Virus record (IMG/VR): IMGVR_UViG_3300031671_000010
Location: 1 to 27,343 of that record
DNA from: a virus
Length of the DNA stretch: 27,343 nt
Direction: 5' to 3' (one strand)
Shown one piece after another: positions 5,379 through 27,343 of the stretch (positions are counted from its first letter, which is position 1; every line of letters starts with the position of its first letter). A program made the position numbers and the translations under genes. The notes beneath the pieces were generated by a model. The model did not search any database and was not told the origin of the DNA. It saw nothing but the letters and a program-made list of their open reading frames with translations.

Positions 5379-6002
5379 TTGAGCGAGATTGACGCCATTT
5401 GGGAACAACGCGACGATGAACCCGATAGCTGGTACAGCAAATTCCAGTTCTATTTGCTCATGGGTGTGGGCCGCTCAATGCTTGGTGCCTACAAAAAATA
5501 CATCACCCAAAAAGGTTCAAAAAAGCTCATAAATTTCGTTCCAGATGGCTGGGATGCCGCTGCACGCCGTTACGACTGGAAAGCTCGCGCTGTCGCCTAC
5601 GATAAATCTGGTGAAGCACAGGCACGTAAAGCCTATGAAGCTCGCCGTCTTGCCATCCTCTCGACTGGATTCGCCTTAGAACACGAACGTGTCGCGCTGC
5701 TTGATGACCTCGCCGCGCAGCTGGATGCCTATCGCCAGATAGAGGACCGCCTCTGGATTACCGAAACCAAACAAATCGGTTTTGGCAAAGATGCGCAGAT
5801 GATTGAGAATGTCACCTTCAACGCGCCTTTGGTCAAAGAATTACGCGGCACACTGGATGACCTGGCGAAAGAATTGGGTCAGCGCACGAAGCGCACTGAA
5901 GTGACTGGCACCGATGGCAATCCGATTGAGGTGGTCTATCACACGATTGTCAAAGAAGACGACGATGATTTTGAGGACATGGACGAAGGCGGTGAACAAT
6001 GA
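5379..6002 (+). CDS. terS: Terminase small subunit-like protein
   Basis: Probable DNA-recognition subunit of the packaging motor. I start at TTG 5379, with GAGG (5367-5370) 8 bases upstream, giving 207 residues that begin MSEIDAIWEQRDDEPDSWYS. An in-frame TTG at 5337 lies inside the terminator hairpin and is unlikely. The opening 'IWEQRDDEP.SWYSKFQFYL.MGVGRS' is the N-terminal layout seen in many phage small-terminase-like proteins. A DGWDAAARRYDWKARAVAYD motif follows (helix-turn-helix region), then long charged helices and an acidic tail (EDDDDFEDMDEGGEQ). The stop overlaps the large terminase ATG as ATGA. The family call is by pattern and position. Confidence 0.75.
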   Translation: MSEIDAIWEQRDDEPDSWYSKFQFYLLMGVGRSMLGAYKKYITQKGSKKLINFVPDGWDAAARRYDWKARAVAYDKSGEAQARKAYEARRLAILSTGFALEHERVALLDDLAAQLDAYRQIEDRLWITETKQIGFGKDAQMIENVTFNAPLVKELRGTLDDLAKELGQRTKRTEVTGTDGNPIEVVYHTIVKEDDDDFEDMDEGGEQ

Positions 6003-7438
6003 TTGCCGCAGAAAAAGTCGTCTTTCAGCCGCAACCTGGTCCACAGTCAAGATTTCTCGCCAGTATGGCCGATATTACAGGTTTTGGTGGCGCTGCTGGC
6101 GGTGGAAAAAGTTTTGGCGTCCTCTTATATATCGCCGAACCGCTCGCTGTTCATCCAGTGAATGGCTTTCAGGCTGTCGTCTTTCGGCGCGAATATCCAC
6201 GCATTACGCAATCGGGTGGCATCTGGGACACCAGCAAAGAAATATTTCCGGTACTCGGCGCAAAAGCGACCGAAGGTAATCTGGAATACCACTATCGCCG
6301 TAAAGGTGTTGAAACATCGGTGCATTTCCATCACCTCCAGCACGAATCCACCTGCGAAAACTGGAAAGGTGCGCAGGTACCGCTGTTCGCGTTTGAAGAG
6401 TTGACTGAGTTCACTGAGCGGCAATTCTTCTATATCCAATCTCGTAATCGCTCTATGTGCGGGTATAAGCCGCGCACGCTGGCGACTTTTAATGCTGATG
6501 CTGATTCATGGGTCAAGAAGTTCTTTGCGCCGTGGGTAAGCGAAGAATGGCCGGTCACTGACCGCTGCATCAGTGGCGAGCGACGTTACTTTATCCGTGA
6601 AGGCAATACCATTGTGTGGCTGCCCAAAGGCAAGAAAACCAAAGATGCCACCAGCGTGACGTTCATCGCCTCAAACATTTACGACAACCCCATCTTGATG
6701 GAAAAAGACCCCAACTATATTAAACGTCTCAAATCACTGCCTTTAGTGGATAGACTGCGCCTCTTGAATGGCGACTGGACGATTCGACCTGAAGGTGGCA
6801 CGCTCTTTCGTCGCGAGTGGTTCAAAATCATTGACGCTGCACCAGCGCAAGACCAGTGGTCAAGTGTGGCGCGTGCATGGGATTTCGCCGCCACAGAAGA
6901 GAAGGATAATAGCAAGAAAGCTGGGCCTGACTGGACAGCATCGGTGAAAGTTGCTCGCCTGAAAGATGGCCGTTTCTGTGTGCTGGACGCCCGCAAGATG
7001 CGTGAGAAACCCATGATTTGCGAGCTGGCGTTGAAGAATTTGGCTGAAGCAGACGGCCCACAGTGCATGATCGCGCTTGAACAAGAGCCAGGTGCTGCCG
7101 CTGTCGCTGTTATGCAGTACTACACACGTTTGCTGGCGGGCTATGTGGTCAAAGTCAACAAGACCAGCCGCAGCAAGATTGAGCGAGCACGGCCAGTCAG
7201 CGCACAGTGTGAAGCTGGCAATGTGCTGATTGTGCGCGGCCCACAGACCGATGACTTTCTCGCTGACCTTGAGTCATTTCCTAATCCGCGTGTGCATGAC
7301 GACTTTCCTGACGCTTTCGATTTGTGTATGGCACAGTTCTTTGGGCCACAGACCGACGATCATCTGCAAGACTTGCGCAACCGCCTGGCACTGCGCGACA
7401 AGCAGCGAGAGGAGATGCGGAATGCAACAGCCTTCTAG
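5999..7438 (+). CDS. terL: Terminase large subunit
   Basis: ATPase and nuclease that pumps and cuts DNA at the portal. The 479-residue protein has a Walker A motif GGAAGGGKS (residues 30-38), Walker B with catalytic Glu in PLFAFEE (128-134), and a coupling motif RTLATFNAD (159-167). The C-terminal RNase H-like nuclease half has D295 in ARAWDFA, an acidic-hydrophobic strand IALEQEPG (around E361/E363) and HDDFPDAFDL (433-441) supplying the last acidic residues. The length fits the family. The ATG overlaps the stop of the small subunit, and the portal start lies within its last codons, so the three are translationally coupled. Confidence 0.95.
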   Translation: MIAAEKVVFQPQPGPQSRFLASMADITGFGGAAGGGKSFGVLLYIAEPLAVHPVNGFQAVVFRREYPRITQSGGIWDTSKEIFPVLGAKATEGNLEYHYRRKGVETSVHFHHLQHESTCENWKGAQVPLFAFEELTEFTERQFFYIQSRNRSMCGYKPRTLATFNADADSWVKKFFAPWVSEEWPVTDRCISGERRYFIREGNTIVWLPKGKKTKDATSVTFIASNIYDNPILMEKDPNYIKRLKSLPLVDRLRLLNGDWTIRPEGGTLFRREWFKIIDAAPAQDQWSSVARAWDFAATEEKDNSKKAGPDWTASVKVARLKDGRFCVLDARKMREKPMICELALKNLAEADGPQCMIALEQEPGAAAVAVMQYYTRLLAGYVVKVNKTSRSKIERARPVSAQCEAGNVLIVRGPQTDDFLADLESFPNPRVHDDFPDAFDLCMAQFFGPQTDDHLQDLRNRLALRDKQREEMRNATAF

Positions 7439-9632: not shown

Positions 9633-11311
9633 GCGATAGCGATAAAGCCGCACAGCAAGCGCGGTCAAAAAAGTACGGCATTGGCATCAAGGAAGGCGGC
9701 AGTGTTAGCCAACCGAGCGGCGATGCGGGGATTCCTGAGAGTGCCTATGGCGACCCGGTTAACTTCAGGTACCCCATGAAAGATAAAAATCACGCCGACA
9801 ACGCTGCAAGCCGTTGGGGTGATGCAAGCAACCGCGCTCAGTACTCAAGTGCCGAGCAGAAAATTATCGGCGACCGTATTGCGGCCCGCCAGAAGTCCTT
9901 CGGGGAAACGCCCGCTAAGGAGAAACGTATGGACGAGCCAGTTATTATACGCGCCGATGGCAATCACGATGCTTTTAGTGGTAGCCATGAACACAGCCAC
10001 AGCGCGTTCGGCAGTCAAGGCGGCGACAACAGTCACAGCCACAGTCACAGCCACGACAACGACAGCAACCATGACCACAGTCATGCCGTTGAAGCAAGCG
10101 ACGTACCCGATATCTTGCGCTCGCTGCCTTCCGACCTCTCGTTGTATGCGCCAATCGTACGCATTGATAAAAGCAAGCGGCATGTTATTGTGCGTGCTAC
10201 CTCAGAGACGCTGGACAGTTACGGCACCATCTTTGACTTTCAGGCCAGTAAAGACGCCTTTACGCGCTGGAACGGCAATATCCGCGAGATGCACGACAGT
10301 AAGAAAGCTGTGGGCGCTGCACTCAAGTGGGAACCGAATGAAGAAGAGAAAGCCATCGACATTACGCTGCATGTCAGCCGTGGTGCGGAAGATACCTGGC
10401 AAAAACTCATCGAAGACCCGCCGACGTTAATTGGTGCTTCTGTTGGTGCCCGCAATGGCGTATGGGAAAAACGCAAAATTGACGACAAAGAAGTGCCTGT
10501 ACTGACGCGCTATGACCTCGTGGAAGTGAGCCTCGTGGATTCACCATCTAATCCTGATTGTCGCATTCAGATTGTGCGTGCCGATGGTTCACCGACCGAA
10601 GTACTCGACGACACAGAACCAGAAGACACACGTGCTGGCAAATCCATCAGTACTGCCAATGCACAGCAGATGCATCAATCCGCGATGCACTCATTACAGG
10701 CCGCCAAAGCATCGGCTGACCTGTGTGGCTGCCCAGCCTGTCAGGAAATTAGCCTCGCGCTTGACCCAGATCAAGATGGTGACATTGATATCGGCGAACC
10801 ATCACTCGACACCGACCACGATGACGGCAGCGTCAACAAACAAATGCTTGCTGATGGCACATCCGCTGTCATTCTCAAAACTATTCAAGCAGAAATACTT
10901 CGCACTGTCGCAGAAGCGATTGGCAGCGAACTCAAAGCAGCCACGACGCAACTACGCAGTGTTTCCGCGCATTTAGCGCAAATACATGAACCGGCAGACC
11001 AAACCGACATCACCCGACGCCTTGATGACGTTGCGGCTATGCGCACCGAGATGACGACAGTACGCTCGCTTCTGAGTGAGGTAAAAGCGTTGTCCGAGAG
11101 CTATGCAGGCCGAGCTTCCACTGGTGGTCCAGTAGTCAATACGGGATTTGCCCGGCAACAAGCACAACCCCAACCCGTCCAGCCGCAGCAACTTGCGGCA
11201 CAATTTGGCGCGTTCACTGAACTGCTTATCAAACAAGGCATCATCAGCGACCGTGACAAGCAAATCCAGGCGAACGTGCTCATTGAGCGGCTCGCCAACG
11301 GAGGAAAATAA
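9629..11311 (+). CDS. Prohead protease (XkdF/HK97 type) with scaffold-like C-terminus
   Basis: This 560-residue protein matures the capsid. Residues 1-95 resemble the DUF6582-type domain (SKKYG ... YPMKDKNHADNAA ... YSSAEQKIIGDRIAARQKSFG). Residues 119-152 are a His/Ser/Asp-rich stretch. Residues 170-318 are the protease: IDKSKRHVIVRATSETLDSY, IREMH with H222, GASVGA with S271, and YDLVEVSLVDSPSNPDC. Then comes CGCPACQE and a perfect 12-residue EF-hand calcium loop DPDQDGDIDIGE (379-390). The final ~150 residues are helical (LRSVSAHLAQ, RLDDVAAMRTEMTTVRSLLS) as in scaffold proteins, then Gln/Pro-rich. The ATG overlaps the stop of the portal gene as ATGA. Protease call strong, metal-binding parts are inference. 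Confidence 0.88.
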   Translation: MSDSDKAAQQARSKKYGIGIKEGGSVSQPSGDAGIPESAYGDPVNFRYPMKDKNHADNAASRWGDASNRAQYSSAEQKIIGDRIAARQKSFGETPAKEKRMDEPVIIRADGNHDAFSGSHEHSHSAFGSQGGDNSHSHSHSHDNDSNHDHSHAVEASDVPDILRSLPSDLSLYAPIVRIDKSKRHVIVRATSETLDSYGTIFDFQASKDAFTRWNGNIREMHDSKKAVGAALKWEPNEEEKAIDITLHVSRGAEDTWQKLIEDPPTLIGASVGARNGVWEKRKIDDKEVPVLTRYDLVEVSLVDSPSNPDCRIQIVRADGSPTEVLDDTEPEDTRAGKSISTANAQQMHQSAMHSLQAAKASADLCGCPACQEISLALDPDQDGDIDIGEPSLDTDHDDGSVNKQMLADGTSAVILKTIQAEILRTVAEAIGSELKAATTQLRSVSAHLAQIHEPADQTDITRRLDDVAAMRTEMTTVRSLLSEVKALSESYAGRASTGGPVVNTGFARQQAQPQPVQPQQLAAQFGAFTELLIKQGIISDRDKQIQANVLIERLANGGK

Positions 11312-11314
11312 CGA

Positions 11315-13003
11315 GTGGAAGAACAAGAATACGAACGTCGTCTTGCCGTTCTCGAAAAAGAGATGGCAAGCAAAAATAAGCCGGAAGCGATTATGCGCAA
11401 CAAGTATGGCGTGCCTGAAAGCGAGCGCACGCTGAACCGGTATAAACCCGGCGAGATGCTGGACACGCCCGACACCGTGCGCAGTTCCGGTGGCATTGTC
11501 AGCCGCGACCAGCTTTCTAGTTTCATGAGCAAGATGACCGCTGATACGCTCGCCCAGACCAACGCGGATATCGAACGTGCCATCAGCACATCGACTGGTT
11601 TCACACCATACGTGCTGGAAACGCCATCTATCCGCATCTATCCGACTGAAGCGCCTTTTGCCCAGATGATACCGCGTGTCGTTGGCCGTGGCACGGACGT
11701 CGAGCACTGGAAAAGTGTGCTTTCGCTGTTCTTGAACGGCGGCATCAACACTGGCCCATTCGGTCAGGTTGGACTTGGTGGCACGACTGACGGCGGTACG
11801 ACAATGAACCCGTTCATCTACAACGTGCAGCCGTTCCAGGCGACCTATCAAACCATTTTCCAGCCACAAACGCAGACCTTCCAGTCTCAGTGGAGGTCAC
11901 GTGCGTTAGAAGGCGACCTGATGGCTCGCGCCAAGCTGGACACGCTCTACGCGCTGAAATTGCAGGAAGAAAACTGGCTCATCAACGGTACATCCAGCCT
12001 GCACGTGCCGCCGCAGCCATTGCTCGTTGCTTCTGCCACTGGCGGTTCGCTCGCAACGGCCACGTATTGGGTACAGGTGACAGCGGTCAATGGTAGTGGC
12101 GAAACCACACCATCAGCGATTGCATCCGTATCCGTGACTGGCGCGACTGGTTCGATTGCGCTCACGTTCCAAGGCCAACCATTCGCAACGTCCTACAACG
12201 TGTATATCGGTTCTGGTGTGACGCAACCAACGAACGCCAACATGTTCATCGCGGTTGCTGGTGATTACCTGCCCGCCGCGCTGCCCGGACAACCGACCGA
12301 TTACGTCGGCAACATGAGCGTGACCGCAGTCATTGCAGTCAAACCAACGACTGGTGCAAATCCACCGGCGAGCAATACGGCCACCGTTGGCACCAATCTG
12401 TTTAACGGGGCGATTGCACTCTGCTATGCCAACCCAAATCCGCTCTCAGCCCCAAGCGTTGGTGAGCAAGGAATGACCAGCATTGTCATCCAGCCCGCTG
12501 CGTCTACTGGACTGATGGTGCTGACCGACCTGTTCAGACTCTTCCGTCTGATGTATGGTCAAGCTCGCGCCAATCCAAGTCACCTGTTTGTCAGTCCCAT
12601 TGAAGGTGAGACGCTCGCCGCGCTAATCGGCACTGCATCCAACTTCCGTGTGATGACCTCACCAACAAAAGGCAACGTGGACAAACTGGTCTACGGACAG
12701 TCCGTTGGCTCTATTCTCAATCCGGTCACGCAGACCTATGTTGAGGTGGTGACGCTGCCATACATGCCACAAGGCCAGATTCTCGCTGGAAGTTTCAATG
12801 TGCCATTCCCACTGCCTTCTGGGGTGTCTGATCCGCCTTTCCGCGTGAGCGTCAACCAGGATTACACCTATGTGGAGTATCCACCCACAATCGCCAACCC
12901 ACAGCAATGGGGTTGGGCGTACCTTGTTGATGAGGTTTTAATAAATCAGTACCAAGGTGGATGGGGGTTGTTGAATGGAATAGTACCTCCTAGTGTGTAC
13001 TAG
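11315..13003 (+). CDS. Major capsid protein, HK97 fold with Ig/FN3-like insertion
   Basis: The 562-residue capsid subunit starts at GTG 11315 with GGAGG about 10 bases upstream. The N-terminal ~50 residues are charged and helical. The HK97-type core follows: TGFTPYVLETPSIRIYPTEA, then MNPFIYNVQPFQATYQTIFQ, and a C-terminal shell part with LFRLMYGQARANPSHLFVSP and VNQDYTYVEYPPTIANPQQW. Between about residues 232 and 345 lies a threonine/serine/glycine-rich beta domain with an FN3/Ig pattern (TATYWVQVTAVNGSGETTPS ... SYNVYIGSG), typical of surface-exposed insertions on capsids. Position directly after the protease supports the call. A GC-rich hairpin follows the gene. Confidence 0.85.
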   Translation: MEEQEYERRLAVLEKEMASKNKPEAIMRNKYGVPESERTLNRYKPGEMLDTPDTVRSSGGIVSRDQLSSFMSKMTADTLAQTNADIERAISTSTGFTPYVLETPSIRIYPTEAPFAQMIPRVVGRGTDVEHWKSVLSLFLNGGINTGPFGQVGLGGTTDGGTTMNPFIYNVQPFQATYQTIFQPQTQTFQSQWRSRALEGDLMARAKLDTLYALKLQEENWLINGTSSLHVPPQPLLVASATGGSLATATYWVQVTAVNGSGETTPSAIASVSVTGATGSIALTFQGQPFATSYNVYIGSGVTQPTNANMFIAVAGDYLPAALPGQPTDYVGNMSVTAVIAVKPTTGANPPASNTATVGTNLFNGAIALCYANPNPLSAPSVGEQGMTSIVIQPAASTGLMVLTDLFRLFRLMYGQARANPSHLFVSPIEGETLAALIGTASNFRVMTSPTKGNVDKLVYGQSVGSILNPVTQTYVEVVTLPYMPQGQILAGSFNVPFPLPSGVSDPPFRVSVNQDYTYVEYPPTIANPQQWGWAYLVDEVLINQYQGGWGLLNGIVPPSVY

Positions 13004-18013: not shown

Positions 18014-20500
18014 ATGGCTGGAGAATACGTCCTCTCACTCGTCATGCAAGCGCAAGATAACGCCAGCAACGCCATATCCGGGCTTCTCAGCAAGCTCGGC
18101 CCGCTTGGTGGCGGCATCGCCGTGGCCGGAGCAGCGCTGGTCGGCGTTGGTATAGCCAGCGTACAAATGGCAGGCAACTTTCAAGAGTCTATGACGCAGC
18201 TGGTAACGGGTGCTGGTGAGTCGCAATCCAACCTCAAGCTGGTCTCTGACGGTATCCTCAACATGGCAGTTACGACTGGCACTTCAACCGACCAACTCTC
18301 AAAAGGCATGTTTATGATTGAGAGTGCGGGCTACCATGGGGCACAAGGTCTGCAAATATTGCAAGTGGCCGCTGAAGGCGCAAAAGTTGGAAATGCCGAT
18401 CTCGGTGCAGTAAGCAACACTTTAACCACTATACTGCACGATTATCATATGAAAGCATCAGATGCAGCAGCCGCTATGAACGGGCTTACGGCCACGGTCG
18501 CCAACGGCAAAACCCATCTGCAAGACCTCGCCAACAGCATGGGCAATGTTTTACCGCTTGCTTCTTCTCTGCACATCTCGTTTCCGCAGGTGGCTGGTGC
18601 CATCGCAGAGATGACAAATAGCGGCATGACTGCCCAACGTGCCTCAATGAACCTCGCCAACGCCATTCGCTCGCTGGCGGCACCTGGTACGACCGCACAG
18701 AAGGCCATGAAGTCGGTCGGCATCTCGGCGCAGGAACTCCACGACACACTCACCAATAAAGGACTGCCAGCCGCTCTACAACTTATCGAGCAGCACGTGG
18801 GTGAAACATTCCCGAAAAATAGTGTGCAGTACACGCAGGCGATGAAAGCGATTATGGGTGGTGCAACGGGATTAAATGTCAGCCTCATGCTCGGCGGCAA
18901 GAACATGAAGGATTACAACGGGAATGTGACCGCTATCTCGAAGTCCATGAATACGGGGAAAGGCAGCGTGCAAGGCTGGGCAGACGTACAAAAAAATTTC
19001 AATTTCAAGGTCGCACAGGCCAAAGAAATGGTGAAGACCTTTATGATACGGCTTGGGCAAGGTTTGATACCGGTGATTGAAAATGGGGCCGACGCGCTGG
19101 GCAACATCATCGGAAAAATAGCATCTTTTGTCAGCTGGTTGAACGCGGGCAGTGGGCCAGCGAACGCGCTCAAAGTAGCCTTAATCGCTGTTGGGGCGGC
19201 GCTTGCCATCATCAAAATAGGCAATTTTATTGCAGCTATCCCGGAAATGCTCGCGAGCCTGGGCGCGTGGATCGCCGAGACCTGGGCGCAAGTCGCAGCA
19301 TTAGTGGCAGAAGCCATCGCTGAGATGGCTGCAAACTGGCCGATCTATCTGATTATTGCCGTGATTGTATTAGTCGTGCTTGCAATCACGCACTGGGGTG
19401 CAATCACCAACTGGCTGAGCGGCGTGTGGCATAAAGCGATTCAAGGCATCATTGATATGCTCAACATGCTAGGAATCCACGTTGGGCAAACCAGCACCGA
19501 AATTGCGCTGCATACCGCACAGATGAGAGACAAAACTCTGGCGCATACCGAAGCGATGGATGTTGGGTCAGTGCATCATCTGGAAAATATGCGAGTGAAC
19601 ATTATTGCGAAACTCAAAGACTGCAAAACACAGGCGGAACGCAATACGCTGGAAATGCAGCTCAAAGTGGTAGACAACCATCTGAAGATGAAAGTCGCGG
19701 CATTAAAACATACCGAAGAGCTTCGTATACAAAATGCCGCAAAAATGGCAAAGCTCAAAGAAGAGGCAGAAGAGCAAAGTAAAGGACTCGTACAGAAAGT
19801 CGGCGACTGGTTCGCTAACCTGTACACAACTTGCGTCAACTGGATTCAAACAACCGTTGCAAAAGTCGTCAATTGGTTTATCAACCTCAAAAATCAGGCT
19901 GTCCAAAAAGTGATCGATTTTGTCAACGGCATTATTACCTGGTTTACCAACCTGCATACACGAGTAGTCAAAAAAGTTCAACAACTCATCACTAATATCG
20001 AAAATTTCTTCCAGCAATTGCCAGGAAAAGCTCTGAAATGGGGCAAAGATATGATCCAAAACCTCATCAATGGCATCACATCAATGGTGGGTGGCGTCAC
20101 GAGCGCAGTAGGCAACATTGCTGGGAAAATAGCTGGTTTCCTGCACTTCTCAAAACCGGAACTCGGCCCGCTTGCGAGCGCCGACCAGTGGATGCCGCAC
20201 TTCGGCGATTTGCTGGCAAGTGGATTGCAAAATCAAGTTGGCAAACTGCAAGCGGCAGCGAGTGCGATGGCGAGTGGCGCGGCTGGCGGTGTGGGTGCAG
20301 GACTCTCTGGCGCACCATCCACTGCATCGCCATCGGCATCTGGCGACAGCACGGGCGCTGTGGTCAACAACTTCACCATTAACTATGTCGGTAACGGGAA
20401 ATGGACGAAACAGGACGCCATAGACTTATCAAATATCTTGCAGCACATGCAGAGAATGAGTGGGCTGCAACCGGCAACATCTAGTGGAAGGCGGTACTAG
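18014..20500 (+). CDS. Tail tape measure protein
   Basis: An 828-residue protein that sets tail length and is ejected ahead of the DNA. It begins MAGEYVLSLVMQAQDNASNA and then shows the TP901-type core (GNFQESMTQLVTGAGES, TGTSTDQLSKGMFMIESAGY, GAIAEMTNSGMTAQRASMNL). A long hydrophobic block at about residues 385-475 (ALKVALIAVGAALAIIKIG, NWPIYLIIAVIVLVVLAI) is the usual membrane-interacting part. The C-terminal half has long charged helices and repeating aromatic motifs (DWFANLY, NWIQTTV, NWFINLK, TWFTNLH). The length suggests a tail of roughly 120 nm by the usual rule of about 0.15 nm per residue, so a medium-long tail. GGGG precedes the ATG. Confidence 0.92.
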   Translation: MAGEYVLSLVMQAQDNASNAISGLLSKLGPLGGGIAVAGAALVGVGIASVQMAGNFQESMTQLVTGAGESQSNLKLVSDGILNMAVTTGTSTDQLSKGMFMIESAGYHGAQGLQILQVAAEGAKVGNADLGAVSNTLTTILHDYHMKASDAAAAMNGLTATVANGKTHLQDLANSMGNVLPLASSLHISFPQVAGAIAEMTNSGMTAQRASMNLANAIRSLAAPGTTAQKAMKSVGISAQELHDTLTNKGLPAALQLIEQHVGETFPKNSVQYTQAMKAIMGGATGLNVSLMLGGKNMKDYNGNVTAISKSMNTGKGSVQGWADVQKNFNFKVAQAKEMVKTFMIRLGQGLIPVIENGADALGNIIGKIASFVSWLNAGSGPANALKVALIAVGAALAIIKIGNFIAAIPEMLASLGAWIAETWAQVAALVAEAIAEMAANWPIYLIIAVIVLVVLAITHWGAITNWLSGVWHKAIQGIIDMLNMLGIHVGQTSTEIALHTAQMRDKTLAHTEAMDVGSVHHLENMRVNIIAKLKDCKTQAERNTLEMQLKVVDNHLKMKVAALKHTEELRIQNAAKMAKLKEEAEEQSKGLVQKVGDWFANLYTTCVNWIQTTVAKVVNWFINLKNQAVQKVIDFVNGIITWFTNLHTRVVKKVQQLITNIENFFQQLPGKALKWGKDMIQNLINGITSMVGGVTSAVGNIAGKIAGFLHFSKPELGPLASADQWMPHFGDLLASGLQNQVGKLQAAASAMASGAAGGVGAGLSGAPSTASPSASGDSTGAVVNNFTINYVGNGKWTKQDAIDLSNILQHMQRMSGLQPATSSGRRY

Positions 20501-22630
20501 ATGTTGGTGGAGCTTGCAGGATTCGATCTTACAAACCTCATAGACCACCCGTCGCTGGCTGGTAGTAAGAGCACGAGCGACCCGCTTGAGTCCATGACCT
20601 TCGAGTTTGTGGACATCGGCTCACAACTGTACCCGACTTTTGGGCAGCACATCACGGTCTGGGATGATACGACACCTTCAACCGTCGTGCAGGTACCGAC
20701 GCGCAACTACCTCGTGAATCAGCTGATTGCCGGGTCAAGTCCGACCACGCCATACGGGCCGTGGGTTACAGGCGGTGCATTATCCAGTGTACTCTCATTC
20801 CAGATAGTGGCACCTGTTTATGCGATGAGCGCGACGTTTGCAAACAACACCTATAGTGGCGGCAACAACACGGCCTACATCACGCAAAATGTGGGTTATT
20901 CGTTCTTTGCCGCTATCGTACCTGGGCAAACCTATATGGCGAGCGTCACCATTCAAGGCAGCGGCACCATCAGCAATATCAAAGCGTTCCTGACGATTCA
21001 GTACCTTGACGGGACACAAACACCAATTGGCAGCCCATTTACGACGGAAGTTGTGCCTACGCTGTCCTCTTTTAAGTTTTCGACATCCGGCGTAGCACCT
21101 GCTGGCGCTGTTTATGCACAGATGCTGGTAGGAGGCAAGGCAACAGTCTCAGGCACCAACAGCGGCGTTATTCAATTTATCCATAGCGGCAGTGGCATTC
21201 TGGGCTGCGTCACACTTGAGCCGGTGCTGTTCCCAAACGGGCACCTGGAAGACGGCACACCCATTCTCTACCCGACGCCGGACTGCACGACCACCTCTAT
21301 TGATGCAGCTATTCTGCCGGACGGCACCACGACGCGCATGAGGTGGATTTTTAATGGCTACATCAAAGATATTAAAGTGACGTATGAAGGCACCAATCGA
21401 ACGTACGTGCTTGATTGTATGCCGATGGGCGACGTGATAGACAACGGGGCCATCATCAACGCGGCCTATGAAAGCACCACCGACCAGGCCATTATCAATA
21501 ATCTGGTCAGCACCTACTTTAGCACGACGCTTTCCACGGGGCAGCCGAACTTCAACCTGCCGCCGGCAACGGTGAACCTGGGGCAAAACATCAGTAATGT
21601 GAGTTACAGCGATAGCAGTTTGCGCGATGTGCTCAATAGCCTCGCCGACTCAACTGGCTTTATTTACTATGTAGATGAGTACAATTACCTGCATTACAGC
21701 GACACGCCGTTCGATTACTCATTGATTCAGGTCAATGTGGATAGCCCGGATTACGTGACCAGCTATCCGCCGCAAAACTACCAGGTGGAGTACGACGGCT
21801 CGCAGTTGCGTAACAGTGTGAAAGTGCTGGGTGGGCAGTACTACACGTCTTCAACCGACGCATTTAACGGCAATGGTTCAACAAAGAGCTTCACACTAAC
21901 CAGTCCACCGCAAAACTTTCAGAACGTCACCATAGGCGGCACGCTCTACGCACCAACATCTTCCAACAAAGTCGGCATTGTCGGGCAGGACAAGCTCGGC
22001 GTGAACGGTGTGGTGGTGCTGTACGACCACAACAGCAGCGTGGTGACGTTTAACACCGCTCCTGCATCTGGCACGAACAATGTACTGGTTACTTATACGA
22101 CGTACAGAAATGTTGCCGTTCAAATCGAAGACAACAACAGCATCGGCCAGTACCAGCGCCACTTTTATAGCAAAGTCACCGATACGACTATCGCCGACAG
22201 CCCAACAGCGCAGATGCGCGGCGTCTCTGAGGTCGGGGCGTTTGCGCAGCCGCTGATTATCCTCACCTTCGACCTGAATGTGTATATCGCACGCGGGCTG
22301 GCGGTGCTGGTGACAAGTGCACTGGACAATTTCGCCGCGCAGGCGTTTATCGTGCAGCAAGTGGACACCAAATCAATGGGCGGCGGAGTGGTGGTCTACA
22401 GTTACACCGCTGGTCAGTACCGGCCATCTATGACCGATTCTTCCAGAAACACCTATAAGGCGCTGCAAGGCACCGGCAGCGGCTCTGGCAGCACCGTGGT
22501 ACAGCTCACGGTCGAATCAATGGTGGACAGCACCTATTACGGTGATTCGGTGTCAGGCGTCCTCTCAGCCGTTGTGACCGCCACCTATGGGGGCGCGGGT
22601 GTCTATTACGGCTTTGCCTCATTCGATTGA
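20501..22630 (+). CDS. Tail hub/minor tail protein with carbohydrate-binding-like insertion
   Basis: A 709-residue protein whose ATG directly follows the tape measure stop. The first ~65 residues (MTFEFVDIGSQLYPTFGQHI) and the block after ~260 (RWIFNGYIKDIKVTYEGTNR ... YVLDCMPMGDVIDN) together resemble the baseplate hub domain of siphoviruses. Between them, at about residues 70-245, lies a jelly-roll-like region with the CBM4/9-type pattern (NVGYSFFAAIVPGQTYMASV, STSGVAPAGAVYAQMLVGG). A second insertion-like part (FNGNGSTKSFTLTSPPQNFQ ... FNTAPASGTNNVLVTY) precedes the last hub part (RGLAVLVTSALDNFAAQAFI). It probably joins tail tube and receptor-binding parts. Domain names are by pattern only. 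Confidence 0.7.
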   Translation: MLVELAGFDLTNLIDHPSLAGSKSTSDPLESMTFEFVDIGSQLYPTFGQHITVWDDTTPSTVVQVPTRNYLVNQLIAGSSPTTPYGPWVTGGALSSVLSFQIVAPVYAMSATFANNTYSGGNNTAYITQNVGYSFFAAIVPGQTYMASVTIQGSGTISNIKAFLTIQYLDGTQTPIGSPFTTEVVPTLSSFKFSTSGVAPAGAVYAQMLVGGKATVSGTNSGVIQFIHSGSGILGCVTLEPVLFPNGHLEDGTPILYPTPDCTTTSIDAAILPDGTTTRMRWIFNGYIKDIKVTYEGTNRTYVLDCMPMGDVIDNGAIINAAYESTTDQAIINNLVSTYFSTTLSTGQPNFNLPPATVNLGQNISNVSYSDSSLRDVLNSLADSTGFIYYVDEYNYLHYSDTPFDYSLIQVNVDSPDYVTSYPPQNYQVEYDGSQLRNSVKVLGGQYYTSSTDAFNGNGSTKSFTLTSPPQNFQNVTIGGTLYAPTSSNKVGIVGQDKLGVNGVVVLYDHNSSVVTFNTAPASGTNNVLVTYTTYRNVAVQIEDNNSIGQYQRHFYSKVTDTTIADSPTAQMRGVSEVGAFAQPLIILTFDLNVYIARGLAVLVTSALDNFAAQAFIVQQVDTKSMGGGVVVYSYTAGQYRPSMTDSSRNTYKALQGTGSGSGSTVVQLTVESMVDSTYYGDSVSGVLSAVVTATYGGAGVYYGFASFD

Positions 22631-23242: not shown

Positions 23243-23533
23243 ATGAGTACTGCATTAAATCGCTTCGAGGTTCTGTTGCCGCAATACCCGGAAGGCAGCG
23301 CAGGAAACACGGCTGTGCAGGCGTTTCTTGTCGAAATGGGCAGTATCACGACCTTTTTTGTCTCGCGGGTGAGCCAAATTGCGGCCAACAACGCGGAAAC
23401 GGAAGGTGCAATTGTGTGGGGCGCTTTGAACACGGCGCAATCGCTGTCCGCACTCATGGCGCTTGAAACCTTAAATACGGCGCTCGGCATCACGTTGCCG
23501 TGCATTTCCTGGTCAGTGAATACAGAACCATGA
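23243..23533 (+). CDS. Unknown small tail-module protein
   Basis: A 96-residue protein with a GAGG site 5 bases upstream. It is mostly helical with Ala-rich stretches (FLVEMGSITTFFVSRVSQIA, LSALMALETLNTALGI). It sits between the tip protein and the triplicated family and ends 7 bases before the first copy. No family recognised. Confidence 0.6.
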   Translation: MSTALNRFEVLLPQYPEGSAGNTAVQAFLVEMGSITTFFVSRVSQIAANNAETEGAIVWGALNTAQSLSALMALETLNTALGITLPCISWSVNTEP

Positions 23534-23540
23534 GGACGCT

Positions 23541-23894
23541 ATGACACTCACGTATGTGCCGCTCAACACGACAAACACGGTGATTCAGGCGGCAGATATC
23601 AATCAGGCCATCAAGTATTTGCAACAGCCATCGGGCGGGCAAGAATTGAGCCATTACTATCTGGAAGGCCCGGCACCGGCAGCTGATACGGTCTCGATGT
23701 ATGTGACGAGCCATTCCAGAGGCAGCACGCCGGTCTCGGCAACGGTGGATGTCACCGACCAGGCGATGACTGGCCTGTCGGGATCGCTGCCGATAACGGC
23801 AACGCTGAAATCGTATGGCGTGCAAGTGTATGCCATCACGACATCTGCGCAGCAAAATGCACGCTGTGGGGGCGCTATTACTTTTCAATATTAG
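23541..23894 (+). CDS. Triplicated tail-tip family, copy 1
   Basis: A 117-residue protein with GAGGACG upstream. Shared features with the next two genes are an N-terminal short strand, then ADINQAIKYLQQPSGGQE, a Ser/Thr-rich beta core with TPVSATVDVT, and a C-terminus ending CGGAITFQY. The 'xNQxIxxLQQPxGxQE' block and the 'GGxxTxQY' end are the family signatures. It is probably a beta-rich, structural or receptor-binding protein of the tail tip, by context. No known family recognised. Confidence 0.75.
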   Translation: MTLTYVPLNTTNTVIQAADINQAIKYLQQPSGGQELSHYYLEGPAPAADTVSMYVTSHSRGSTPVSATVDVTDQAMTGLSGSLPITATLKSYGVQVYAITTSAQQNARCGGAITFQY

Positions 23895-23904
23895 AGGAAA
23901 AACC

Positions 23905-24249
23905 ATGGCACTGGTACTGGCGATTACGGGGCATAACGTGCATGCCACTGATTACAATCAGGTGATAAACGTGCTGCAACAGCCTGCGGGCGGGCAGGAA
24001 CTCGGTGGCTACGTGCTCTCTGGGAACACGTACACGAGCGGCTGTACGGTCGCGGTGTATATTGCCACGCTCTCAAAATATACGCCGCTGGTGTCGGTAT
24101 CGGTTGATACGACGGATATCAGCCCACCAGCGTACTTCAATACGCTGCTTCTCGCGAAGGAAACCAGCCACGGCTTTCTGATTTATACGACGTGGACATC
24201 GGCGCAAGGCGGCGGCGCATGCGGCGGCAAGTACACCGCCCAATATTGA
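23905..24249 (+). CDS. Triplicated tail-tip family, copy 2
   Basis: A 114-residue paralogue. I start at ATG 23905 with AGAGGAAAA upstream; an upstream in-frame TTG at 23815 would overlap copy 1 and is unlikely. It contains TDYNQVINVLQQPAGGQELG, then GNTYTSGCTVAVYIATLSKY, TPLVSVSVDTTD and CGGKYTAQY. It differs most from copy 1 in the middle loop (PPAYFNTLLLAKETSHG). Two cysteines (CTVAV and ACGG) may be paired. Confidence 0.75.
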   Translation: MALVLAITGHNVHATDYNQVINVLQQPAGGQELGGYVLSGNTYTSGCTVAVYIATLSKYTPLVSVSVDTTDISPPAYFNTLLLAKETSHGFLIYTTWTSAQGGGACGGKYTAQY

Positions 24250-24259
24250 GGAAAACAAC

Positions 24260-24601
24260 ATGGCGCTAACGGTAGTGGCAACGGGCGACACAATTACGAC
24301 GCTCTCGCTCAATCAAATTCTATACTACTTGCAGCAACCGAGCGGTGCGCAAGAATACGGCAACTATAACATTTCTGGCAATTGCTACACGAGCAGTTGT
24401 TATCTGACCTGCTATATCGAAACGGAATCACGCAATTCGGTGCCGGTTTCTGCCGCGCTTTCAACGAGCGACGGACAAGGCGGCGGCGCGGGCAATCCGT
24501 CATACGGCAGTCTGACTATGGGCGGACTGCAAGCCTACTCACTGGTGAGTGCGGCAACGACCAACGCGTTTGTGGGCGGGCCACACACGGTTCAGTACTG
24601 A
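24260..24601 (+). CDS. Triplicated tail-tip family, copy 3
   Basis: A 113-residue paralogue with GAGGAAAA upstream. It contains SLNQILYYLQQPSGAQEYGN, then GNCYTSSCYLTCYIETES, VPVSAALSTSDGQGGGAGNP and VGGPHTVQY. It is closer to copy 2 than to copy 1 around GN-YTS-C. It is followed 13 bases later by the cysteine-rich gene. Confidence 0.75.
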   Translation: MALTVVATGDTITTLSLNQILYYLQQPSGAQEYGNYNISGNCYTSSCYLTCYIETESRNSVPVSAALSTSDGQGGGAGNPSYGSLTMGGLQAYSLVSAATTNAFVGGPHTVQY

Positions 24602-24614
24602 AAGGAAGAAATGT

Positions 24615-25142
24615 ATGGGGCTACATTCCTACAACGAAGAAACGGGCGATCTTGAGTATTATTGCACCAATCCTGAGTGCAGCCATCACAGCTGCGCCGA
24701 TTGGGAAGCGTTTCGCACCTGCGCGCATCATGACCAAATGGAATACGTCGTTGTGCCTGCCGCTGAAATGCAGCAACGACTGGCTGGCGTCCTACCGCCT
24801 GAACAGCTGCAACAGCTGGGCGACACCATCATCTCACAGCAAAGCGCGGCGCACCGCGTATCAGGCGGCACGTCCAATGTGCATCACGCCAGCCACGAGG
24901 ATATCAAATGGACTGGCCCCAATGAGGTGCAATTGCCGATGTGCGAATGCGGCACGCAAATGACGCTCAAAGTCAATTTTAGCGACGCGGAATTGAATGC
25001 GCCAAACATCAAAATTGTGCGCAGAAATAAAGATAACCCAACCATCATTGATGGCATAGACCAGCATCCGATGGTGGCTCGCCATCAAGCGTTGGCAAAA
25101 AAATTGGAGCAATTAGGCAACGTGTACCGCCCGCTGCTATAA
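24615..25142 (+). CDS. Cysteine/histidine-rich protein, probable zinc binder
   Basis: A 175-residue protein starting at ATG 24615 with AAAGGAAG six bases upstream; an in-frame ATG at 24549 lies inside copy 3 and is unlikely. The first 40 residues hold C17, C22, H24, H25, C27, C36, H38 and H39 (CTNPECSHHSCADW then CAHHD). A second CEC cluster (residues 110-112) is in PMCECGTQMTLKVNF. The spacing suggests one or two zinc sites. A predicted coiled or helical middle (EMQQRLAGVLPPEQLQQLGD) links the two. It lies in the tail-tip region, an unusual place for a zinc-binding protein. Function unknown. Confidence 0.65.
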   Translation: MGLHSYNEETGDLEYYCTNPECSHHSCADWEAFRTCAHHDQMEYVVVPAAEMQQRLAGVLPPEQLQQLGDTIISQQSAAHRVSGGTSNVHHASHEDIKWTGPNEVQLPMCECGTQMTLKVNFSDAELNAPNIKIVRRNKDNPTIIDGIDQHPMVARHQALAKKLEQLGNVYRPLL

Positions 25143-25157
25143 GAAAGGAAAACGACA

Positions 25158-25883
25158 ATTTCAGATTTCACGACAATTAGAAGCATGTTCAATTCAGGCA
25201 CTGATGCGAGTCCCACCTGGAACGCCATCGCCTTTGGCGGTTCGGCAGGTGCCAATGAGTATCGCTGGTGCGCGTCTGGCGCTGGTGCCGCAGGTACGGG
25301 CTCAGCATCCTGGCCGCAGTACAGCCGACCAGCTTCAACGGGTGCGATACCTGAGCTCTGGGGCTTTTCAGCAGATACCACCGGCATCAAATGCGCGACA
25401 TATGACGGCACCAACGGCAAGGCCAATGTGTTCGCCATAGACTTTGATGCAGTTGGCACCTTCGCTGCTGCTCCAACGCTCTCTGCCTGGGGCGATAATA
25501 CGCACACCGCGCCATCCGCTGGCACACAGCCAGGTGGTCAGAGCGGTTCGCCCATTGTGAACGGGCAGACCACTGACACCAGCGATGCCAGCTACCTCAA
25601 AGGCAACCTGTATGGCACGTCAGGAACAACGGTCAGTGCTGGCTCGGTCGGCACCACGCTCGCGGCCACATCAGGCACAGCAGGCAGCGTTTCACCCGGC
25701 ACGGGCGCATGGATGGCGACGTGGCAGTCATTGCAAGGCGCTATCCAGTACATTACCGCAGCGGCAACGCCAGCGGCAACCACGGCTGGCAAGCTGTTCT
25801 TCACACTTGCGTTGTACACCGGGCCAAACATGAGCCTGGGTACACTGCTGCCGGTGGTGACGTTCACTTACAGCTACGTCTAA
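25158..25883 (+). CDS. Fibre-like Gly/Ser/Thr-rich protein, probable ATT start
   Basis: This reading gives 241 residues from ATT 25158. No ATG, GTG or TTG occurs in frame between the upstream stop and an ATG at 25185, yet AAAGGAAAA lies 8 bases before the ATT and 35 bases before that ATG. The sequence between (ISDFTTIRSM) continues the protein smoothly. The body is Gly/Ser/Thr/Ala-rich with strands (FAIDFDAVGTFAAAPTLSAW, GTTLAATSGTAGSVSPGTG) and ends with a hydrophobic strand (VVTFTYSYV). It looks like a tail fibre or appendage component. No family recognised. Confidence 0.65.
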   Translation: MSDFTTIRSMFNSGTDASPTWNAIAFGGSAGANEYRWCASGAGAAGTGSASWPQYSRPASTGAIPELWGFSADTTGIKCATYDGTNGKANVFAIDFDAVGTFAAAPTLSAWGDNTHTAPSAGTQPGGQSGSPIVNGQTTDTSDASYLKGNLYGTSGTTVSAGSVGTTLAATSGTAGSVSPGTGAWMATWQSLQGAIQYITAAATPAATTAGKLFFTLALYTGPNMSLGTLLPVVTFTYSYV

Positions 25884-25892
25884 GGAGGCTCT

Positions 25893-26834
25893 ATGACGCT
25901 CACACCATCAGGTGAAGTCGCCGTCTTTCCGGCACCGGTTGACCAGTTTCAGCCAGGCAAATCGGCGTACGAGTGCGTGGCGTTTTGCGCGGCATTCGTG
26001 CACTTTGCTGGTCCGCCCACAGGCAATCCAGGCGGCACACCTGCACAGGTGATTGCGACGGCTGAACAGTGGTATGCCACGGAAGAAGGCTCAAATGATT
26101 CATCCAACATGAACGGCATGAGTCTGGATGCCGAGTACGCCATGCTCAAAGGCTTGGGTGTCGCCTATACGCCGCTGCCCATCAGCGCGAACTCTGCACA
26201 CGACAGCGACATGGCAAACGTCAAAGCAGCTTTGCTGGCCGGAAAGCCGGTGATGATCTGCGGAGCGGAAACAGGCTTTTACGATGTTGGCCTCGGCGAC
26301 ATCATTCCATACGGATGGACACCGACCGGCAATCACTGCATCGTTGCAACCGGCATCGCGCCATCAGGCAACTTTTACGTGCGCGATATGGCAAACGTCG
26401 GACACAATCTGGCTCCAGGCTCACAGCGCGAATATGACAACAACCGCATGGATTTGATCTCAGGAACGGCCATAGACGTTCCGTGGCTCTCGACGCCGCC
26501 GCCAGCGCCCAATTTGCTCCTGCCCAACGCCAACGACCTGGCTGTCTGGAATCTGCTGCAAACCATGCTGTCCGAGGCGTTTCCAACCTTGCCGCCACTT
26601 CCAACCATTCCATGCGACCCGACGCATGCTATTCCGCAAGCATGGTTGGTCGGCAGATGGAAACACGGCTGCAACTTTGGTACGCCGCTACAGGTGGAGC
26701 AGAATATGACCAGTTTTTATAAAACGCCGTACACCGTCATGGAACAGGAGTTCACCCACGCTCGCGCCTCCTGGCACAGCGATACCGGAAAAGTTACATG
26801 GTATGACGCCCGCGGCGTTGTTGTCGTTCTCTAG
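25893..26834 (+). CDS. C39/papain-like cysteine peptidase, possible cell-wall lysin
   Basis: A 313-residue protein with AAGGAGG upstream. The catalytic pattern is that of a papain-fold peptidase: C28 in SAYECVAFCAAF, H148 in GNHCIVATGI and D165 (with N168) in FYVRDMANVG. The last ~110 residues (from PNLLLPNANDLAVWNLLQTM) hold an additional, partly Pro-rich domain with WLVGRWKHGC and YTVMEQEFTHARASW, possibly a wall-binding or oligomerisation part. In phage tail modules this class often cuts peptidoglycan peptides for DNA entry or for lysis. It is the only enzyme of the tail end seen here. Active residues are assigned by eye. Confidence 0.7.
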   Translation: MTLTPSGEVAVFPAPVDQFQPGKSAYECVAFCAAFVHFAGPPTGNPGGTPAQVIATAEQWYATEEGSNDSSNMNGMSLDAEYAMLKGLGVAYTPLPISANSAHDSDMANVKAALLAGKPVMICGAETGFYDVGLGDIIPYGWTPTGNHCIVATGIAPSGNFYVRDMANVGHNLAPGSQREYDNNRMDLISGTAIDVPWLSTPPPAPNLLLPNANDLAVWNLLQTMLSEAFPTLPPLPTIPCDPTHAIPQAWLVGRWKHGCNFGTPLQVEQNMTSFYKTPYTVMEQEFTHARASWHSDTGKVTWYDARGVVVVL

Positions 26835-26843
26835 GAGGCACGC

Positions 26844-27343
26844 ATGAGCATCGCCAGCACCTTATACAGCATCGGAAACGCACTTGACCCGATGACGGCC
26901 TACTGGAGCGCAGCATTGTCTACCGGCAAGCGCGTTTCCGAGCGCACGCTGCTGCCCACGCTTGCTCGCGGCGGCAAAGGACTGCGCAGTCTGGATTGGG
27001 CGCTTGATTTGGTCTCTACGGGCGATGTGCGGCGCATTACCGAGCTTTCGCTCCACTGTCCTGATGGTCGAACAGCAGTGCTGGAAATCGCGGAACCGGG
27101 CACCGCGTTCCAATTCAAAACCAAATCGCTCACTATGTTCGCCAAAGATGGGCTCTGCATCGAGTATCAGGTGATTGGGCGCGTTGTGGACAAGGCAACC
27201 GGCAGGTGCGAAGCATTTGCCTGGGATTACCGGCCAAAGCCAGGTGAGCCGAACCTGGTGGCGTTCAAAACCAGCATCTATAACTTCGGTAGCTGGCGCG
27301 ATACCATGACGCCAATCGGCGCGCTGGGGTTAGAAGTGCAAGG
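26844..27343 (+). CDS. Unknown tail-end protein, cut by the window edge
   Basis: An open reading from ATG 26844, with AGGAGG upstream, runs to the end of the window without a stop (at least 166 residues). It begins MSIASTLYSIGNALDPMTAY and contains LARGGKGLRSLDWALDLVST and VDKATGRCEAFAWDYRPKPG. No family recognised. It continues beyond the window. Confidence 0.6.
   Translation, partial: MSIASTLYSIGNALDPMTAYWSAALSTGKRVSERTLLPTLARGGKGLRSLDWALDLVSTGDVRRITELSLHCPDGRTAVLEIAEPGTAFQFKTKSLTMFAKDGLCIEYQVIGRVVDKATGRCEAFAWDYRPKPGEPNLVAFKTSIYNFGSWRDTMTPIGALGLEVQ

Follow-up and report, generated by a model that had tools for sequence, protein, structure and literature searches.

We conclude that three adjacent genes in an uncultured long-tailed virus probably encode miniature receptor-binding feet of the tail tip. 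By structure prediction and by analogy with known phage and pyocin feet, these would probably be trimeric, would contact glycans, and would serve non-redundant functions. The window, by which we mean the whole stretch of DNA analyzed, is a 27,343-base virus record with a siphovirus-type structural module (terminase, portal, capsid-type protein, and tape measure). The three genes follow one another within it:

23541-23894, plus strand: copy 1, 117 aa, an N-terminal helix region and a predicted jelly-roll (from ORF and homology; pairs with copy 1 of the relative described below)
23905-24249, plus strand: copy 2, 114 aa (from ORF and homology; a 905-aa protein of the relative carries its counterpart by position as the C-terminal domain)
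24260-24601, plus strand: copy 3, 113 aa, whose AlphaFold model is a discoidin/H-type-lectin-like jelly-roll (from ORF and model; pairs with copy 3 of the relative)

The preliminary description of this DNA had named three consecutive genes of 113 to 117 residues that were duplicated and then diverged, and both statements are borne out. The genes are separated by 10-bp spacers, with an AGGA-type ribosome site ahead of every ATG. Their products are 38-40% identical in pairs across ∼110 residues, with alignment scores of 163-173 against shuffled means of 31-33 and shuffled maxima of 53-64 (z 22-25), and copy 3 used as a query against the window record retrieves copies 1 and 2 at E ∼1e-15. These comparisons confirm that the protein sequences are those of true paralogues. 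At the DNA level, the sole similarity is one 60-nt stretch, 72% identical, between copies 1 and 2; the duplication is therefore old, and there is no sign of recent gene conversion.

As had been anticipated, the copies belong to no described sequence family, since no Pfam, PHROG, or NCBIfam family matches any of the three. No match came from 50,697 phage records searched by tblastn with copies 2 and 3, and viral-contig scans, whether run with one copy or with the alignment of all three, returned no relative, nor did a first genome scan. A relative was reached through the terminase, whose alignment led to 80 virus loci; the three-copy profile was then run on 50 whole records. One of the 50 is a carrier, IMGVR_UViG_3300005537_000017 (39,375 bases; referred to here as G002), with three profile matches at E 4e-31 to 9e-29, and the search was repeated with a six-sequence profile comprising the window and G002 copies. 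A further 38 records searched by profile gave spurious matches only, and weak profile matches (12.5 bits) in three near-identical records were rejected as lying antisense to a helix-turn-helix-like ORF. Scanning genomes with the tail-tip alignment gave no match, and no close strains of the window virus were found in the searches made. Among the records searched, the family is thus carried by two viruses only, the window virus and G002. The homologues in G002 are not single unrelated genes; there are exactly three copies, in the same place as in the window.

That place lies behind the tape measure and tail tip, among the following neighbors in the window:

18014-20500: tape measure
20501-22630, plus strand: 709-aa tail-tip protein, immediately following the tape measure; 38-42% identical to its G002 counterpart, with a distant relative in Methanosarcinales virus vir515 (BK063672.1) and Thermoanaerobacterium phage THSA-485A
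22627-23235, plus strand: 202-aa fiber-like protein; 42-44% identical in G002, where it stands directly before copy 1
23243-23533: 96-aa gene directly before copy 1, with no counterpart in G002
24615-25142, plus strand: 175-aa Cys/His-rich protein immediately behind copy 3; G002 has it at the corresponding place, 48-49% identical

The gene order therefore runs from tape measure to 709-aa tail tip, 202-aa fiber-like protein, 96-aa gene, and copies 1, 2, and 3, and it supports the earlier placement of the triplet at the tail tip, where the proteins would be located in the virion. G002 keeps the same order, with copy 1 directly behind the fiber-like gene and without the 96-aa gene between them. 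In addition to the identities listed above, the two viruses are 67% identical in the capsid-type protein, 56% in the portal, and 45% in the terminase, so that by sequence G002 is clearly a distant cousin of the window virus. The ∼120 bases common to both ends of the G002 record fit a complete circular record.

Several other genes of the window gave separate observations. The 96-aa gene matched RRM_9 at E 0.007, below the cut-off, which we took as chance. The 175-aa protein begins with a Cys/His-rich stretch (CTNPECSHHSC...C..H), has a CxCG motif, and matches no family; from these residues, it is possibly a zinc ribbon. A 313-aa protein (25893-26834) matches a C39-like peptidase weakly (PF13529, E 4e-4, narrowly missing the cut-off) and has no relative in phage records; it is possibly a lysis or cell-wall enzyme. 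The window also has mosaic relatives (5999-7438 and 11315-13003): the terminase is nearest (∼42%) to Methanoculleus and Rhizobium phages, and the capsid-type protein and portal resemble those of THSA-485A.

The middle copy in G002 is part of a much larger protein:

9678-10028: G002 copy 1, standalone, 116 aa
12422-12754: G002 copy 2, inside ORF 10040-12757, where it makes up the C-terminal ∼111 of 905 residues
12766-13107: G002 copy 3, standalone, 113 aa

At one conserved position, the same domain thus occurs by itself and as the C-terminal part of a 905-aa tail protein. The 905-aa protein has a LamG_3 lectin domain at residues 624-781 (PF13385, E 7.6e-23), and its residues 360-556 resemble a portion of a phage protein that PHROGs calls phosphodiesterase. 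Its first ∼340 residues belong to no known family, yet look enzyme-like by eye; a GH18-like barrel that motifs seemed to suggest there was rejected, since neither PF00704 (GH18) nor any solved chain matches this N-terminal part. Because the N-terminal block of the small proteins is kept inside the long G002 chain, the comparison suggests that the domain together with this block is an end module complete in itself and not an anchor to the tail.

We built a maximum-likelihood tree from the six sequences, three from the window and three from G002. Window copy 1 pairs with G002 copy 1 (support 84/86; 49% identical) and window copy 3 with G002 copy 3 (support 92/90; 42% identical), and a single clade of the three window copies is disfavored, marginally (p-AU 0.033). 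The second copies are paired by position only and not by the tree. Taken with the gene order, the 1-1 and 3-3 pairings are most simply read as a triplication that most likely took place before the two viruses diverged. The copies would then have been kept since before that divergence and are for this reason probably non-redundant, as is also indicated by lineages 1 and 3 having persisted in both viruses.

The preliminary description had raised the possibility that the tip is hetero-oligomeric, built from the three products (a 1:1:1 trimer would be one form), or that they might provide host-range variety. The triplet occurs in both viruses in the same order, its genes are adjacent in the window, copies 1 and 3 form separate lineages, and the copies have N- and C-terminal blocks in common, all of which would suit such an assembly. 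The middle copy of G002 lies in a 905-aa chain, however, and would make a very unequal trimer, and known phage and pyocin feet of this fold are homotrimers (PMC6363177). We consider a hetero-oligomer improbable because of the very unequal chain sizes in G002; three different homotrimeric feet would be the most likely arrangement.

The blocks common to the copies are placed as follows:

23601-23645, plus strand: NQAIKYLQQPSGGQE, signature block of copy 1, covering the end of the helix and the turn that leads to the first strand (from alignments)
23956-24000, plus strand: NQVINVLQQPAGGQE, signature block of copy 2 (from alignments)
24311-24355, plus strand: NQILYYLQQPSGAQE, signature block of copy 3 (from alignments)
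23868-23891, plus strand: C-terminal GGxxTxQY of copy 1, last strand (from alignment and model)
24223-24246, plus strand: C-terminal GGxxTxQY of copy 2 (from alignment)
24575-24598, plus strand: C-terminal GGxxTxQY of copy 3 (from alignment and model)

Both blocks had been described before, and GGxxTxQY is exact in all three copies; the NQxI block is present as well, but copy 3 has L rather than I at its fourth position. The copies had also been said to have very different middles, which holds in part. Low-identity segments do exist, and across the six homologues pair identity is lowest in three segments: the loop that precedes the last strand (0.25), the loop after strand b3, and strand b2 (0.26 each). 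The center also keeps, however, an 'S.STPVS.SVDT.D' stretch at 0.47-0.52. The best conserved parts among the six are the structural ends, QQPxGxQE and the last strand.

We modeled copy 3 as a single chain with AlphaFold, using the six-sequence alignment as input. The model has a mean pLDDT of 77, with a low-to-medium-confidence helix (residues 14-24) followed by a beta-sandwich (residues 31-113) that mostly scores 78-92. Foldseek searches of this model against the PDB and viral models gave no match at E ≤ 0.001; the lists, all of whose entries fall short of that threshold, are rich in tailspikes, discoidins, agglutinins, tail fibers, and H-type lectin phage proteins. In VIA-align, discoidin II ranks first (Z 9.9, 2.0 Å over 82 residues) and discoidin I next, followed by the C-terminal domain of the LKA1 tailspike (Z 8.9), snail agglutinins (8.2-8.5), and tail proteins of Pam1, K64-1, R-pyocin, AP22, phi297, and Sf6 (Z 6-7.4). 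A second model, of G002 copy 1, is weak (pLDDT 63) and gives the same order of matches, with a best Z of 9.0. The copies are therefore predicted to carry an antiparallel discoidin/H-type-lectin-like jelly-roll of ∼90-100 residues. With discoidins, agglutinins, and phage tail feet as its top matches, this predicted fold supports the earlier suggestion that the proteins are of a receptor-binding type. Gene position and the C-terminal place of the domain in the G002 905-aa protein point to a tail-tip or fiber-end location, where we would expect the copies in the virion.

Beta-sandwiches are also common in decoration proteins, and plant-virus capsids and pilus proteins are among the lower-ranked VIA-align matches (Z 4-5), so the copies might instead be some other small beta-sandwich virion protein, such as a head or tail-tube decoration, rather than tail adhesins. 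We regard this as very unlikely, given that the top matches of both models are phage tail feet and lectins, that the genes stand behind the tail tip and the fiber-like gene, and that one copy is fused to a LamG protein.

A single known family would account for all three proteins in predicted fold only and not in sequence. H_lectin (PF09458) matches nothing in the window, in G002, or in any of the six members, and in hhalign the Bacillus phage Page H-type lectin domain gave a probability of 0.2%. One PF09458 match in another virus record (G014; 14.1 bits) was rejected because it lies antisense to a 374-aa ORF. Gp53-like_C (PF21882, the AP22 gp53 type) has no match in the window or G002, whereas the phage Page positive control matches. 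The three proteins likewise have no Pfam or PHROG tail collar match (phrog_5795), and the family profile has no match in vir515. We therefore keep the copies out of the H_lectin and Gp53-like_C families, although their models look like members of these families and they probably work like them.

H-type lectins are the best fold matches, with discoidin I/II and Helix pomatia agglutinin at Z 9.9 and 8.3 over ∼80 residues. These are eukaryotic proteins, however, and the copies have no PF09458 match; sugar-binding residues in the copies are putative. Also similar are the C-terminal discoidin-like domains of tailspikes, including LKA1 gp49 (4RU4), phi297 gp61 (4RU5), AP22 gp53/gp54, and Pam1 (7EEA). 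They resemble the copies in fold (LKA1 Z 8.9, 8.4), and G002 copy 2 also ends a large tail protein, but they follow a beta-helix or fiber, whereas the G002 protein has LamG and the window copies are standalone, and identity is only ∼6-12%. The LKA1 domain, which is of the same kind, is thought likely to bind carbohydrate (PMC5701251).

The R-pyocin foot (PDB 6CL5, 6CL6, 6CT8, and 6CXB) is a trimer proposed to bind receptors, and the fold relatives reported for it are the same as those of our models (PMC6363177). Both models match it as a predicted jelly-roll (Z 6.7-6.9, 72-86 residues), and a short helix lies just before the foot in the pyocin as in the copies (PMC6363177). It differs in ending a long fiber with a shaft and head, whereas each window copy is the whole protein, with three in tandem, and it has no sequence similarity to them. 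Its proximal loops L2 and L4 are conserved and its distal loops L1, L3, and L5 variable (PMC6363177). In the six sequences, the loops that we assign to L3 and L5, as inferred from strand order, are the most variable and have the most indels, and L2 is conserved; the overall difference between distal and proximal loops, on this assignment and with six sequences, is not significant (p 0.11).

Conservation of the structural ends, QQPxGxQE and the last strand, could also mean that the domain is mainly a trimerization or capping module that locks tail-tip fibers, with receptor binding left to other parts, such as LamG and the upstream domains in G002 and the 202-aa or a 232-aa fiber-like protein in the window. 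The domain does end a long protein in G002, at the site where many tailspikes carry a trimerizing domain. Two of three G002 copies and all three window copies are standalone, however, and have nothing else to trimerize, and in R-pyocins this fold is the part proposed to bind the receptor (PMC6363177). We think it unlikely that capping is the main role, and capping and receptor binding can coexist.

Tandem tail proteins also occur in the unrelated virus vir515, where three adjacent tail-collar paralogues (46-51% identical; 24960-27063) lie directly behind a tail-tip protein distantly homologous to that at 20501-22630 of the window. They are ∼230 aa and of the tail-collar type, and we rejected them as relatives of the copies because they belong to a different family and the profiles find nothing in the vir515 record. 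With an unrelated triplet there in vir515, the family of the window and G002 is not alone in having tail proteins triplicated in tandem.

In the receptor-binding reading that we favor, each copy would consist of a short N-terminal helix (residues ∼14-24), the QQPxGxQE turn, and the discoidin/H-type-lectin-like jelly-roll (∼31-113), and would probably trimerize through the helix and jelly-roll, as R-pyocin fibers and tailspike C-terminal domains suggest by analogy. The feet would sit near the 709-aa tail tip, with the loops far from the helix contacting host surface glycans. After duplication before the window virus and G002 diverged, the retained copies would have taken on probably non-redundant roles, the same module serving alone and, in G002, as the end domain of a larger LamG-bearing adhesin. 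A broader and rather doubtful extension is that the trio of shaftless, standalone mini-feet is a gene set of a deep lineage, in which one slot can be swapped for a large lectin fiber with its own foot, making a modular adhesin socket.

The organization is unusual and the kind of tail adhesin ordinary, and current views of tail adhesins are not overturned. The analysis delimits a small protein family that Pfam, PHROGs, and NCBIfam do not contain and assigns it a likely role, and it supplies three paralogous candidate receptor-binding proteins. Together, the window virus and G002 would be a natural example of a tail slot at which a small adhesin and a large one are exchanged.
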